From: Bacteroidales bacterium
Lineage (GTDB): Bacteria; Bacteroidota; Bacteroidia; Bacteroidales; Marinilabiliaceae
Assembly (NCBI GenBank): GCA_024401395.1
Contig: JAKSLD010000030.1
Span: 1 to 34,258, forward strand
Reading direction: 5' to 3'
DNA length: 34,258 bases
The position numbers and the translations under genes are program-made. Below are positions 8,857-34,258 of this stretch, piece after piece (the stretch's first letter is position 1; the number at the start of each line of letters is the position of its first letter). The notes under the pieces are model-generated. The model made no database searches. It had not been told where the DNA came from and saw only the letters and a program-made list of their open reading frames with translations.

Positions 8857-9894
8857 ATGGAAGAAAAACGCTTTATTAGTCCGCTCACAGATTTCGGCTT
8901 CAAGCGAATCTTTGGCAACAAGGACATTCTGCTCGCATTCCTCAACGATTTGTTCGAGGGCGAGGTGCAGTTCACCGATTTAGTCTATTCCGATAAGGAA
9001 ATAAAGGGCGACTCCGAGGAGGACAAGACAGTAATCTACGACATCCATTGCACAACATCCAGCGGCGAGAAGATTATCGTAGAGATGCAGAACGAGTTTA
9101 CGCTGGGCTTCCGCGACCGTATGGTGTATTACATTGCCCGCGATGTGGCAAAGCAAGGCGAAGCAGGAAAGGGTTGGAATTATGGCTGTTTGAAGGCTGT
9201 ATATTCAATAATCTTTACTAATTTTGAACTGTTCGATAATAATGGTCCGCAGGAATCATTTCAAAGACACGACGTCAAGCTTGTAGACACAACCACAAGC
9301 AAGCCGTTTACGGACAAGATACGGATGGTCTGCCTGCAGATACCGTTGACCATAGAAGAGCCGTTGCAAAGCGGAACAAAAATAGATACGTGGATGTATA
9401 ATCTCAAAAACATGCACAGCATGCAGCAACTGACAAACGCCGAAGATATGCCGATCTTCAAGAGATTGGAGCAGGTGGCAGAGTACCATCAGCTGTCGCC
9501 CGAAGACCGTGAAGCTTATGACATCAGTTATAAGCACTATTTGGATGCGTACAACCTGGAGCTATCCCGCAAGCTACGCATGGAGATGGCCCTTGAACAA
9601 GGGCTGCAGCAAGGTATAGAGCAAGGACTGCAGCAAGGTAGAGAACAGGGGCTGCAGCAAGGACTTGAACAAGGACTACAGCAAGGTAGAGAGCAAGGGC
9701 TGCAGCAAGGACTTGAACAAGGACTTGAACAAGGACTTGAACAAGGACTGGAACAAGGTAGAGCTGAGGGAGAAGCCAAAGGCGAAAGAAAGAAGCAACT
9801 TGAGATTGCTGCGAATATGAAGTCGTACGGTATCCCTAATGACCAGATAGTTTCAATGACTGGTCTTTCGCTGGAAGAGATAGAATCACTATAA
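8857..9894 (+). CDS. Rpn-family / PD-(D/E)XK nuclease-type 'transposase' with C-terminal EQG tetrapeptide repeats
   Basis: 345 residues. The N-terminus (ISPLTDFGFKRIFGN) is the hallmark of the Rpn/PDDEXK_2 family, proteins labelled transposase but better seen as recombination-promoting nucleases. Putative active-site residues are D62, E76 and Q78 (IVEMQ), the usual D...ExQ form. Residues 246-301 are fourteen tetrapeptides of type (L/R/I)(E/Q)QG encoded at 9592-9759, ending in RAEGEAKGE, and the tail (about 313-345) is a short helical domain seen in the family. Family members increase RecA-independent recombination in E. coli; biological use in Bacteroidota is unclear. There are no terminal inverted repeats, so it is not an insertion sequence. 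A strong terminator follows. Confidence 0.9.
   Translation: MEEKRFISPLTDFGFKRIFGNKDILLAFLNDLFEGEVQFTDLVYSDKEIKGDSEEDKTVIYDIHCTTSSGEKIIVEMQNEFTLGFRDRMVYYIARDVAKQGEAGKGWNYGCLKAVYSIIFTNFELFDNNGPQESFQRHDVKLVDTTTSKPFTDKIRMVCLQIPLTIEEPLQSGTKIDTWMYNLKNMHSMQQLTNAEDMPIFKRLEQVAEYHQLSPEDREAYDISYKHYLDAYNLELSRKLRMEMALEQGLQQGIEQGLQQGREQGLQQGLEQGLQQGREQGLQQGLEQGLEQGLEQGLEQGRAEGEAKGERKKQLEIAANMKSYGIPNDQIVSMTGLSLEEIESL
9592..9759 (+). repeat. In-frame 12-bp tandem repeat encoding (x)(E/Q)QG tetrapeptides
   Basis: Fourteen consecutive 12-bp units encode LEQG, LQQG, IEQG, REQG variants. Units are similar at DNA level (for example CTTGAACAAGGA recurs four times near the 3' end), so copy number can change by slippage or recombination without frameshift. 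Confidence 0.9.
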
Positions 9895-12796: not shown

Positions 12797-12826
12797 ACTC
12801 TTTCGCATTTCTGAACGACTCGTTGT

Positions 12827-12898
12827 GAAGAAAGTGAAGAATGTGAAGTGAAGCACCTTCTTCCTTTTCTTCATGCGCGATAAATAATAAATATTTTC
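12827..12898 (+). repeat. Left arm of long imperfect inverted repeat
   Basis: A 72-bp segment rich in GAAGTGAAG, aligned without gaps to the reverse complement of 13328-13399. The outer 27 bp match at 25 positions and the block ATGCGCG is identical. It ends 16 bp before the small HTH gene at 12915. Confidence 0.75.
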
Positions 12899-12914: not shown

Positions 12915-13247
12915 ATGGCAAAAACTTTTCTTAACAGAAATCTTCCGCCTCTTCCTACTAACTACGACAGGTCACAAAACTATACTGTGTCCGTCTATCA
13001 TCAGAAGGAGGGCGACACCGTTTCTAGACAGACGTCCGACCGCGATATTTTCTTCGACCAGATGCCTGATACATTTACTACCGAATTTGCAAAGGAATAT
13101 GGAAAGGCTATAGGAACAACAGTTCGCTCCATTCATACATGGATTGCCGATTTTGTAAAACATGGCAAGCTTAGACGTATCAACAAGTGTGTCTATATGA
13201 AAACATTCCTGGTTAAGGAGATTATTAATTTTAATGGCTCTCTTTGA
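12915..13247 (+). CDS. Small HTH protein resembling the C-terminal domain of DUF3987/VirE primase-like proteins
   Basis: 110 residues. The second half (FFDQMPDTFTTEFAKEYGK, then AIGTTVRSIHTWIADFVKHGK) is a winged-helix or HTH module like the one that ends many Bacteroidales DUF3987/VirE-type proteins: a short F..(L/M)P..FTT lead, two helices, and a C-terminal strand with lysines and arginines. The body of such a protein is absent, so this is either a remnant that still has a start codon or a free-standing DNA-binding protein. It lies exactly between the two arms of the long inverted repeat, and a hairpin follows its stop. Function is unknown. Confidence 0.5.
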   Translation: MAKTFLNRNLPPLPTNYDRSQNYTVSVYHQKEGDTVSRQTSDRDIFFDQMPDTFTTEFAKEYGKAIGTTVRSIHTWIADFVKHGKLRRINKCVYMKTFLVKEIINFNGSL

Positions 13248-13327: not shown

Positions 13328-13399
13328 AAAAATACTTATTACCTTACGCGCATAAAGAATATAAAGGAGTCACTTCACTTCACTTTCTTCACTTTCTTT
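13328..13399 (-). repeat. Right arm of long imperfect inverted repeat
   Basis: Reverse-complement partner of 12827-12898, about 56 of 72 positions identical and no gaps. It lies 46 bp upstream of the HTH gene at 13445. The 429 bp between the arms contain the gene at 12915. Confidence 0.75.
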
Positions 13400-13444
13400 A
13401 TAATCCTCTCATTTACAACGGAATACTAGGGTAAAATAAACTAC

Positions 13445-13663
13445 ATGAAAATGAACCTACTTCACAATCCTTCCCAAAATACAGATATTTTTGCTAAAAC
13501 TATGACCAAAGCCGAGCTCGCCGACTACCTGGGGATATCTCGTCGCACTCTTTTGCGATGGCTCGACCGTCTGGAACTTTCAGGTATCGAGGGCTACAGT
13601 AAGACCGACAAGATATTGCCCCCTCCCGTACTTAAGATAATCTCAGAGAAGCTCTGTCTGTGA
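13445..13663 (+). CDS. Small helix-turn-helix DNA-binding protein
   Basis: 72 residues. Residues 20-43 (MTKAELADYLGISRRTLLRW) are a clear helix-turn-helix of the MerR/excisionase type. The remainder is a short basic-acidic tail ending in a helix (VLKIISEKLCL). Internal ATGs at 13451 and 13502 are possible starts; 13502 would leave just the HTH. Together with the gene at 12915 it resembles the small regulator found beside VirE/DUF3987-type loci in Bacteroidales, but the target is unknown. Confidence 0.6.
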   Translation: MKMNLLHNPSQNTDIFAKTMTKAELADYLGISRRTLLRWLDRLELSGIEGYSKTDKILPPPVLKIISEKLCL

Positions 13664-13695
13664 CAACATAGCAATAAAACTTTAGATAACTCACC

Positions 13696-13760
13696 CTTAA
13701 CGCACTCTTAACACTCTCTTAACGCTCTCTTAATACAGCCTTAATACAGACATAACTTTG
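13696..13760 (+). promoter_or_regulatory. 11-bp periodic CTTAA array running in register into a TAACTTTG box (copy 1)
   Basis: Five consecutive 11-mers: CTTAACGCACT, CTTAACACTCT, CTTAACGCTCT, CTTAATACAGC, CTTAATACAGA (13696-13750). The sixth register position is CATAACTTTGC, which contains a perfect -7 box TAACTTTG (13753-13760). No TTG lies at the -33 position; the repeats occupy it instead. No gene follows on this strand: downstream are the hexamer array and the 3' end of a gene on the other strand. Confidence 0.75.
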
Positions 13761-13813
13761 CACCCCCCTTGTCTAACTAAGTTTCTCTTTCCTTTATCTA
13801 AATATAAGCCAAC

Positions 13814-13909
13814 GTCAACGTCCTCGTCAAAGTCAACGTCAAAGTCAAAGTCAACGTCAAAGTCAATGTCAACGTCAAAGTCAATGTCAATGTCAATGTC
13901 AAAGTCAAA
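13814..13909 (+). repeat. Hexanucleotide array, 16 units of GTCAA(A/C/T)
   Basis: Sixteen adjacent 6-bp units; one is deviant (GTCCTC) and the other fifteen are GTCAAA, GTCAAC or GTCAAT. The last unit contains the stop codon of the minus-strand gene at 13905. On the minus strand the units read NTTGAC. The length suggests slippage-driven growth. Confidence 0.95.
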
Positions 13910-14924
13910 ACTTCGCCTTCGCCTCGTCAAGAACTGATATTATCTTGTCGCACCATTCGTCGAATTCTTTGTCTTCTCTTTGTAGCTCTGGATGCGCTAG
14001 TATGTGCTTCACGGTTCGTCTGCAGCCTTCGGCAAACGAGATATGTGTGGTGAAGTCTGGTACGGCTCGTTTCAACTTGCTGCAGTCGAATACCACACTG
14101 ACTGCCTTGTCGCCTAGCAGATTTCCCTCCATGTCGTATCCGTTTGGCTCAATGTCGGCAAGGAAGGCTGATGATACATAATAGGGCTTTAACTCTACCC
14201 CAAGAGCGTCGGCTACTGTTTTGTATATCTGATTCCATGTCAATGTCTCGTCCGACATGATCTGGTAGGCCTCGCCTATAGCATGTGGATTGCCAATAAG
14301 TCCAATAAACCCACGGGCAAAATCTTCATTGTGTGTCATCGTCCAAAGTGATTCGCCATCTCCGTGGATAATCACTTTCTTGCCCTCTAACATACGTTTC
14401 AATACTTGCCATGAGCCATTGGCTCCGTGAATGCCAACAGGTACGCTTCTCTCGCAGTAGGTGTGACTGGGACGTATTATTGTGACTGGGAAGCCTTCTT
14501 CTCGATACCATTTCATTAGAAGATTCTCGCAGGCTATCTTGTTGCGTGAGTATTCCCAATGGGGATTGACAAGTGATGTGCCTTCTGTTATGATATAGTT
14601 GTTGGCTGGCTTCGCGTATGCACTGGCACTGCTGATGTACATATATTGTCTTGTCCGTCCTTTGAAGAGCCTGTGGTCGCGTTCTATTTGTTCTGGGACA
14701 AAACCGATGAAGTCGCATACACAGTCGAACATCATGCCCTCAAGTTTCTTCGCAACGTCTGCCTCGTCGTTGATGTCGGCTACTATAGTCTTCACATTTG
14801 CCGGTACCTCATTGGCACGGGTGCCACGATTGATAAGGTATAGCTGACAGTCTTTTCTCTCTGCCAGTTGTCGCGTGATAGCACTGCTGATAGTGCCTGT
14901 TCCGCCAATAAATAGAATCTTCAT
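13905..14924 (-). CDS. NAD(P)-dependent epimerase/dehydratase-like SDR protein
   Basis: 339 residues. It starts with the Rossmann motif GGTGTIS (about residues 7-13). SSASAY (about 98-103) and YSRNK (about 124-128) supply the serine and the YxxxK pair expected in extended short-chain dehydrogenases. The C-terminal half is the substrate-binding part (HGDGESLWTMTHNEDFARGF). The subgroup is nucleotide-sugar-epimerase-like and also resembles plastid CSP41-type proteins. Substrate is unknown and the protein is cytoplasmic. It is a monocistronic minus-strand unit. The stop codon lies inside the first unit of a hexamer repeat array, so repeat changes could alter the C-terminus. Confidence 0.8.
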   Translation of the reverse strand: MKILFIGGTGTISSAITRQLAERKDCQLYLINRGTRANEVPANVKTIVADINDEADVAKKLEGMMFDCVCDFIGFVPEQIERDHRLFKGRTRQYMYISSASAYAKPANNYIITEGTSLVNPHWEYSRNKIACENLLMKWYREEGFPVTIIRPSHTYCERSVPVGIHGANGSWQVLKRMLEGKKVIIHGDGESLWTMTHNEDFARGFIGLIGNPHAIGEAYQIMSDETLTWNQIYKTVADALGVELKPYYVSSAFLADIEPNGYDMEGNLLGDKAVSVVFDCSKLKRAVPDFTTHISFAEGCRRTVKHILAHPELQREDKEFDEWCDKIISVLDEAKAKF

Positions 14925-22595: not shown

Positions 22596-22639
22596 CTTAA
22601 CGCTCTCTTAACGCTCCCTTAATGCACGCTTAATACACA
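22596..22639 (+). repeat. 11-bp periodic CTTAA array (copy 2)
   Basis: Four adjacent 11-mers: CTTAACGCTCT, CTTAACGCTCC, CTTAATGCACG, CTTAATACACA. They show the same order as copy 1: CTTAAC units first, then CTTAAT. They are followed by GCTGTTTTTCGC rather than a -7 box. Confidence 0.85.
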
Positions 22640-33769: not shown

Positions 33770-33813
33770 TCTGTATTAAGGCTGTATTAAGAGAGCGTTA
33801 AGAGAGTGTATAG
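33770..33813 (-). repeat. 11-bp periodic CTTAA array (copy 3, inverted)
   Basis: Read on the minus strand: CTATACACTCT, CTTAACGCTCT, CTTAATACAGC, CTTAATACAGA. The last three units are identical to units 3-5 of copy 1 at 13718-13750. It points towards the cyclophilin gene, over 200 bp away. Confidence 0.85.
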
Positions 33814-33861
33814 AGAGGTAGGGGGATATGATTTTTATATGTTTTGTTTTTTGGGAGGGAG

Positions 33862-33921
33862 GTGGTTCTAGGAGGAGGCTAGTGGTTCTAGGAGGGGGTA
33901 GTGGTTCTAGGAGGTGGTGGT
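33862..33921 (+). repeat. G-rich repeat, three copies of GTGGTTCTAGGAGG
   Basis: Copies start at 33862, 33882 and 33901 (spacing 20 and 19 bp), preceded by GGGAGGGAGG at 33853. The strand is strongly G-rich and could form a quadruplex, though most runs are only two G. Confidence 0.75.
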
Positions 33922-33926
33922 TAACA

Positions 33927-33946
33927 AGACGGTGTACACACCGTCT
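33927..33946. repeat. REP-like palindrome
   Basis: AGACGGTGT and ACACCGTCT arms around a 2-bp centre, followed by CTAC. It resembles the short AGACGG/CCGTCTCTAC palindromes scattered in several bacterial genomes. Confidence 0.6.
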
Positions 33947-34025
33947 CTACAAAGCGATAACAAACGATTAGGAAGACACTAAAAAACGCTTGACCCCCCC
34001 CAAAAAAAAACGGCCAAAATATGTC

Positions 34026-34067
34026 GTTCGTCAAAAATTATTGCAGTTCGTCAAAAAGTTTATTGCG
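34026..34067 (+). repeat. Tandem direct repeat upstream of the last gene
   Basis: GTTCGTCAAAAATTATTGCA (34026-34045) is followed at once by GTTCGTCAAAAAGTTTATTG and two further bases (34046-34067). The second copy overlaps the -33 element of the promoter candidate at 34063. Confidence 0.6.
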
Positions 34068-34092
34068 GAATTGAGGCAAATTTTTAGTTTCG
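34063..34092 (+). promoter_or_regulatory. Promoter candidate of the last gene
   Basis: TTG (34063-34065), 19 bp, TAGTTTCG (34085-34092; one mismatch to TAnnTTTG). The start is 86 bp downstream, implying a long leader. Confidence 0.4.
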
Positions 34093-34178
34093 CGACGGAT
34101 TCTTTGTGCACGTTCATCCCGATGAAAACACACTGGACATACCAAAAATTAACAGTTAAAAATTTTTCAAAACAATTC

Positions 34179-34258
34179 ATGAAGAGATTTCTATCTTTAT
34201 TCGTTTCTGCCTTGTTTGCTGTAGGTGCATGGGCAGAAGAGCCTCTGAGTGGCGAGTA
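34179..34258 (+). CDS. 5' end of an exported protein
   Basis: Only 26 codons are present. They form a clear Sec signal peptide: two basic residues, a hydrophobic core (FLSLFVSALFAVGA) and a likely cleavage after AWA, followed by EEPLSGE. There is no lipobox. The mature protein lies beyond the window, so nothing can be said about function. Confidence 0.7.
   Translation, partial: MKRFLSLFVSALFAVGAWAEEPLSGE

Follow-up and report, generated by a model that had tools for sequence, protein, structure and literature searches.

A dispersed intergenic repeat with a helically phased 11-bp core in a Marinilabiliaceae genome

The array at 13696-13750 and its surroundings

The window, by which we mean the whole stretch of 34,258 nucleotides analysed here, carries on its plus strand, at 13696-13750, five exact CTTAAYN5 units (CTTAACGCACT, CTTAACACTCT, CTTAACGCTCT, CTTAATACAGC and CTTAATACAGA) that follow one another without slips, as established by direct reading and a shuffle test. 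The tail 11-mer CATAACTTTGC at 13751-13761 (plus strand) holds TAACTTTG at 13753-13760, and TTTG is absent 19-21 bp upstream of this box. The gene to the right, at 13905-14924, lies on the minus strand and is convergent, and a hexamer array of the GTCAAA/GTCAACG type occupies 13806-13909, adjoining the element past the stop of the convergent epimerase gene. The description given in the initial annotation, namely five contiguous 11-bp units, a perfect -7 box in the next 11-mer, a missing -33 element, a hexamer array nearby and no same-strand gene downstream, was thus accurate. A degenerate unit in register, GATAACTCACC, precedes the exact units at 13685-13695 (plus strand); it contains TAAC at 13687-13690, and a match to four TAAYN7 units begins at 13687.

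Judged by the limits of homology between copies, the whole element to which the array belongs, a member of a group of copies termed subfamily A, covers 13668-13803 of the plus strand and consists of an A+T-rich shoulder, a core of phased 11-mers and a second A+T-rich shoulder. Its inverted-repeat ends, a feature of subfamily A only, are TTTAGATAAC at 13681-13690 (left) and TTTATCTAAA at 13793-13802 (right), both given on the plus strand, and this pair scores 9. A three-unit version of the pattern matched six times in the window, forming three arrays that begin at 13696 (plus), 22596 (plus) and 33775 (minus), and had no match in each of 100 dinucleotide shuffles. The second and third family copies, found by both the pattern and the search model described below, have their exact-array cores at 22596-22634 on the plus strand and at 33775-33802 on the minus strand.

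The third copy lies within a duplicated segment of about 500 bp (33775-34202 in the window) that is 80-89% identical among two other loci (L013 and L022) and the window, and that also has 19-bp repeats of the TAGAACCACC type. Other repeats were seen in the window. Those of the GTGAAGAAA type (12825-12848) and the CTTCACTTT type (13378-13398), in opposite orientation, flank a gene for 110 amino acids (12915-13247) that had no family match over the cut-off, and a PDDEXK_2 family gene at 8857-9894 has, towards its 3' end, a 12/24-bp repeat (GAACAAGG/CTGCAGCAAGG) in frame.

Copy number, anatomy and inheritance of the repeat

The exact pattern matched 43 times in the genome from which the window comes, forming 26 arrays, against none for a reversed-pattern control. 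A search for TAAY arrays in the same genome gave 30 matches at eleven-base spacing and three in a twelve-base control. We then used a sequence-only search model built from 35 array cores, which found at least 67 matches in the own genome (at least 64 distinct places), at least 31 (29 places) in G011 and at least seven in G012, and none in the 12 other genomes of the genus; the array family is therefore present in three of 15 genus genomes. The figure of 64 places is a lower bound, because scoring in the own genome covered 150 of 1170 first-look candidates and one more array, at G000:C15:12943, escaped the model; two copies at contig ends (L013 and L111) may be halves of one. Beyond the genus, the exact pattern occurred in four of 71 genomes of the bacterial family, two of which had just one match each, and when 295 genomes of the order were searched with the model under stricter filters, which recovered 20 matches of the own genome, only this genome matched. 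The copies analysed below come from 95 of 100 distinct places (64 of 64 in the own genome, 25 of 29 in G011 and six of seven in G012). Just three of the 64 own places overlap a called gene. The best reading of the array at 13696 is that it is one copy of a lineage-specific, short non-coding intergenic repeat of about 135-140 bp, of the REP/PINSR kind.

The recurrent core is about 66 bp long and consists of about six 11-mers in which positions 2-5 hold a TA step and positions 8-10 read C-W-S, set between A+T-rich shoulders. The TA steps face the same side of the helix, and C-W-S is offset by half a turn. Long stretches of the copies can be aligned without gaps. Where homology between copies was found beyond the core, it typically ran from about -78 to about +58 of the array end, with sharp edges and few gaps (-53 to +77 in the pair L018/L023); the window copy aligns with G011 over 309 bp at 81% identity, from inside the small HTH gene (13445-13663) to 13802. 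In the 95 registered copies, whose effective number is about 83, the A+T content was 0.70-0.76 at -66 to -45 and +33 to +54 and 0.55-0.61 outside. When only intergenic DNA of the own genome was considered, it was 0.67-0.72 at 20-60 bp from the match and mostly 0.54-0.66 beyond. In loci L019, L020, L083, L085, L116 and L140, inspected by eye, the array starts right after a terminator-like hairpin and T run.

Many units depart from TTAA (TATAAC, CTATAC, ATATAC, CTTATA, AACTAA and CACTAC are examples). Among units without TTAA, TA was found at positions 2-5 in 42/60, 14/17, 25/25, 21/23 and 63/89 (units -33, -22, -11, 0 and +11), and at positions 7-10 in 1, 0, 0, 1 and 9, respectively; the phase inside the core is, however, partly built in, because the detection model was made from exact arrays, and related copies are not independent. 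In the +11 unit, which the search model barely touches, 68 of 94 copies still have an in-phase TA and nine an out-of-phase one. No 11-bp phase was seen beyond -44 and +21 of the registered copies.

Terminal inverted repeats of about 9 bp characterize subfamily A alone. For the family as a whole, own-end pairing did not surpass that of permuted pairs (405 of 1000 without subfamily A, n=83; 95 of 1000 with it, n=91), so a MITE with inverted ends was rejected as the identity of the repeat. A structured RNA was also discarded. Eight subfamily A copies showed no consensus base pairs, the single-sequence fold had z values of -1.87 (plus strand, which folds weakly) and -0.20 (minus strand), and no Rfam family reached its gathering score in the window and four loci, the two matches below threshold at 13400-14000 scoring 21.6 of 50 and 20.1 of 55 bits.

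Part of the family is inherited by position. Of 25 copies in G011, five share both neighbouring genes with an own copy and a further three share one gene, at whose 3' end they lie. G011 was without the element in five of 20 gene-side comparisons, one of them next to the window copy at 22596, in a comparison that favours presence, since retrieval of the G011 loci was centred on elements. No counterpart of the copy next to the carbonic anhydrase gene was seen in G011, where synteny is not clean. Our expectation that orthologous pairs would show stronger conservation in the core than in the flanks was not borne out. In the five pairs the core letters were no better kept (208/319 identical vs 351/574, P = 0.25), and gap openings (three in cores, which we had at first taken to be gapless, vs 13 in flanks, P = 0.19) did not differ significantly. 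In pairs such as L092/L134, TTAA and TATA units swap in phase, a change that concerted exchange between copies could also have produced.

Several observations concern individual copies or other arrays. Two near-identical copies with near-identical flanks, L120 and L121, lie 34 kb apart on one contig of the own genome (G000:C47). The proteins that flank two G012 copies (pairs L143/L112 and L145/L102) match those of the own genome at 96-99.7% identity, much more closely than is usual, which may reflect recent transfer or mixed bins. The sister genome G003 has a dispersed 11-bp TAAC array family of its own, to all appearance unrelated, with unit CTAACCCAAGN, four to five units and a GTCAGG-like leader, at nine fetched places (L196-L204). 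Other Bacteroidales genomes (loci L048, L052, L053, L055, L056 and L063) carry arrays of 11-bp period whose units include CTTAACTCTGA, CTTAACCCTGA, CTTAACTCTGT and CTTAATTCTCT.

Gene context of the copies and the promoter-like box

Genes were called with a home-made hexamer scorer in the retrieved loci, and the intergenic regions of these loci that reach 120 bp (n=81) served as background. The context set comprised 56 own copies after dropping three that overlap a called gene and five without a called neighbour on one side (five and eight, respectively, across all genomes); the window copy at 33775, one of those dropped, lies between divergent genes by a cruder assignment. The own copies were found in 15 convergent, 38 tandem and three divergent regions, compared with seven, 54 and 20 in the background. 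Convergent regions were enriched (P = 0.008) and divergent ones depleted (P = 0.0025). The upstream gene is on the plus strand in 30 of 56 cases and the downstream gene on the minus strand in 38 of 56, and the median distance to the neighbour gene was 82.5 bp for stop-facing and 153.5 bp for start-facing flanks (P = 0.0008). Tandem own copies had no strand bias (15 with both genes on the plus strand vs 23 with both on the minus strand, P = 0.26). A like tendency was found in G011 (n=22; five convergent, 17 tandem, none divergent). The copies thus prefer the 3' ends of genes, without strand preference. The initial annotation had held that genome-wide copies lacking strand or position bias would speak against its reading, and the outcome is split: strand bias was absent and position bias was present, directed towards gene ends and not starts. 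The G003 arrays show the opposite tendency: of seven usable ones, six face a gene on their own strand and three are in divergent regions, which cuts against one common rule for such arrays.

Arrays that resemble activator-dependent promoters do exist in the bacterial family. A search of its 71 genomes for four TAAY-N7 units found single sites in many genomes and returned 30 loci. In nine of the 15 loci inspected (L155, L157, L160, L161, L174, L175, L152, L154 and L147), the distance from the start of the last TAAY to that of TAnnTTTG is exactly 14 bp, and a -33 box is not needed. Seven proteins encoded downstream were tested, of which three match PBP_like_2 (PstS-type) and two Porin_O_P (OprP-like) over the cut-off, and no match was obtained for the gene in L174 or for the first of those in L155; at L168 and L169, both PstS-type sites, the array occurs without TAnnTTTG. 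PhoB activates pst genes in Bacteroides fragilis (PMC3547664), and we take the loci with array and box as Pho-type promoters, probably bound by PhoB.

The repeat shares with these promoters TAAY every 11 bp on one strand. The promoters differ in that their box is at 14 bp, they precede PstS-like or OprP-like genes and they are not dispersed. Not one of the 95 copies has TAnnTTTG 14 bp after the last TAAY. The box was in register in six of 95, each time 11 bp after the last TAAT, and all six belong to the nine-copy subfamily A, from two species; three further TAnnTTTG among the 95 copies were out of register. The promoter-like box is restricted to one subfamily. The slot that holds it is the tail unit, which in other copies reads CATAACACAGC/A, CACTACCCAGA or CGCTACCCAGA. 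Since the slot elsewhere carries CATAACACAGC or CACTACCCAGA, the box is most easily explained as a variant 11-mer, although it could have turned functional in subfamily A. Hence, the earlier statement that the array flows in register into a promoter box was correct as to register, whereas the promoter box is the repeat's own next 11-mer. The idea of an activator array that replaces the -33 element suits the nine loci of the family, but the array in the window, with its box at 11 bp and not 14, fits it poorly.

The regulators encoded by the own genome were also considered. It has one Trans_reg_C (OmpR-type) protein, which is RprY over its cut-off, and PhoB remained below cut-off. No PstB reached the cut-off in five genus genomes (best, 329.9 of 343.2 in G003; 157.8 in the own genome), and a PstS query of the own genome found nothing. 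We rejected promoter or activator as the general function of the repeat, on the basis of its siting at gene ends without strand bias, the differing box offset and a PhoB score below cut-off. The other option raised in the initial annotation, a mobile or passive repeat, agrees better with the strand, position and box counts than an activator promoter does.

Relatives of the repeat and possible functions

Dispersed intergenic repeats at gene ends are familiar from the REP/BIME elements of enterobacteria, in which the REPs are palindromic. Unlike them, the repeat described here is neither palindromic nor endowed with a consensus fold, and no stem-loop was found. Literature searches found no description of it and led to BrickBuilt and PINSR. 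PINSR, the closest known kind, is a 188-bp, intergenic, TIR-less and lineage-restricted element with 177-184 copies (PMC4755523). Both are short, non-coding and intergenic, have many copies in few related species, are without family-wide terminal inverted repeats and have no assigned function. The likeness drawn here is one of description, and the portion of the PINSR account used here names no 11-bp phased core (PMC4755523). Next comes BrickBuilt, a MITE of Porphyromonas gingivalis with a 23-nt unit of expanding copy number, a leader and tail with inverted ends, and target duplications (PMC4596501). The two agree in being intergenic, in tens of copies, with a tandem repeat between leader and tail, and in the same phylum, but our element has an 11-bp unit, a near-fixed length and inverted ends in subfamily A only, which sets it apart from BrickBuilt as described. 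Helical phasing makes it a new variety among the lineage-specific intergenic repeats.

A comparison with gyrase sites is also instructive. Gyrase has been linked to BIME (PMC6379681), and the E. coli enzyme prefers a 130-bp motif with G+C phased at about 10.75 bp (PMC6379681). The repeat resembles this motif and strong gyrase sites in its alternation of A+T and G+C at the helical period and in its overall length of about 130-140 bp (PMC6379681, PMC12393610). The gyrase motif, as far as it is described in these sources, has two 47-bp arms around a 36-bp centre and a period of 10.75 bp, whereas the repeat has one arm of about 66 bp and a period of 11.0 bp; in place of the two phased arms of strong gyrase sites, a single tract of about six units was found.

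The element looks more like a DNA-bending or wrapping site than like a promoter. Our tentative preference, which we would put somewhat short of an even chance, is that the core acts as a phased bending or wrapping site for a protein at the ends of transcription units. Duplication of whole elements would have spread the copies, the core would have been kept as a phased bending signal, and a DNA-bending or wrapping protein, our best guess being gyrase or a nucleoid protein, would dock where supercoiling collects. The TA phase, the A+T shoulders, the placement at gene ends and the positions shared with G011 support this reading; core letters no better conserved than flanks, a geometry that differs from that of gyrase sites and a phase built partly by the model weaken it, and the opposite tendency of the G003 arrays counts against it. 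The strict C at position 8 points to a constraint beyond bendability or may just reflect descent. A repeat that is purely passive or selfish, spread by duplication or a trans-acting enzyme and tolerated at gene ends, with the 11-bp register as a minisatellite relic, is nearly as probable, and the choice between the two is nearly even. Presence in only three of 15 genus genomes, a very narrow distribution, speaks against a conserved host function; tolerance alone would give the avoidance of divergent regions, core letters turn over like flanks, subfamily A has its 9-bp inverted ends, and PINSR and BrickBuilt, as described, are close precedents. A passive repeat accounts less readily for the TA phase in units without TTAA, for shoulders that are A+T-rich even among copies with unrelated flanks and for the positions shared with G011, and the inverted repeats are not family-wide. 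The wrapping site can also be stated in full: selection in about 64 dispersed, lineage-specific elements would act on a rotational code of six turns (TA facing one side, G/C the opposite one, A+T shoulders) and not on a letter motif, the elements would dock gyrase or a wrapping protein at transcription-unit ends, and related species would have independently built 11-bp arrays of other letters. Taken whole, this would be unlikely.

Less probable still are readings in which the letters are recognized by a regulator or the transcription machinery. Head-to-tail operators at 11 bp for an OmpR/PhoB-class protein, here RprY, whether as regulatory sites or as a sponge, would accord with the TAAY direct repeats before PstS-like and OprP-like genes elsewhere in the family and with the single Trans_reg_C protein, RprY, retained by the own genome. 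We regard them as improbable, given that PhoB is absent and PstB not over the cut-off in this genome, that copies stand at gene ends without strand bias and that many units are TATA-type and not TTAAC; genus genomes without arrays also have one Trans_reg_C match each (five genomes, only the own one typed as RprY). A promoter in which TAACTTTG (13753-13760) directs transcription from about 13767 and the array serves as activator site is quite unlikely, even if the window has a perfect TAnnTTTG and six of nine subfamily A copies, in two species, retain it: the box is in register in just six of 95 copies, its offset is 11 and not 14, no same-strand gene lies downstream in the window, and arrays placed before a same-strand gene were not favoured among the 56 copies, which had no strand bias. 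An RNA-level element is the least probable of all. Rho prefers a C-rich, G-poor, unfolded strand, and the plus strand of the repeat is of this type, with pyrimidine-C steps every 11 nt, weak folding and no consensus fold in eight subfamily A copies. Nonetheless, a signal read on the strand should follow same-strand genes, and the tandem copies run opposite (15 plus and 23 minus), so a Rho loading site was rejected.

Were they no more than passive repeats, these elements would still serve as a species-specific marker, and the subfamily that mimics an activator-array promoter makes them a trap for motif scans. For the bacterial family, the TAAY-N7 array with TAnnTTTG at 14 bp before phosphate-type genes is a testable candidate for Pho-box geometry. 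The gyrase and nucleoid-protein sites of this phylum are little mapped, and if phase and not letters is what has been kept, the repeat would provide a natural test of how bendable DNA is used at the ends of transcription units in bacterial chromosomes.
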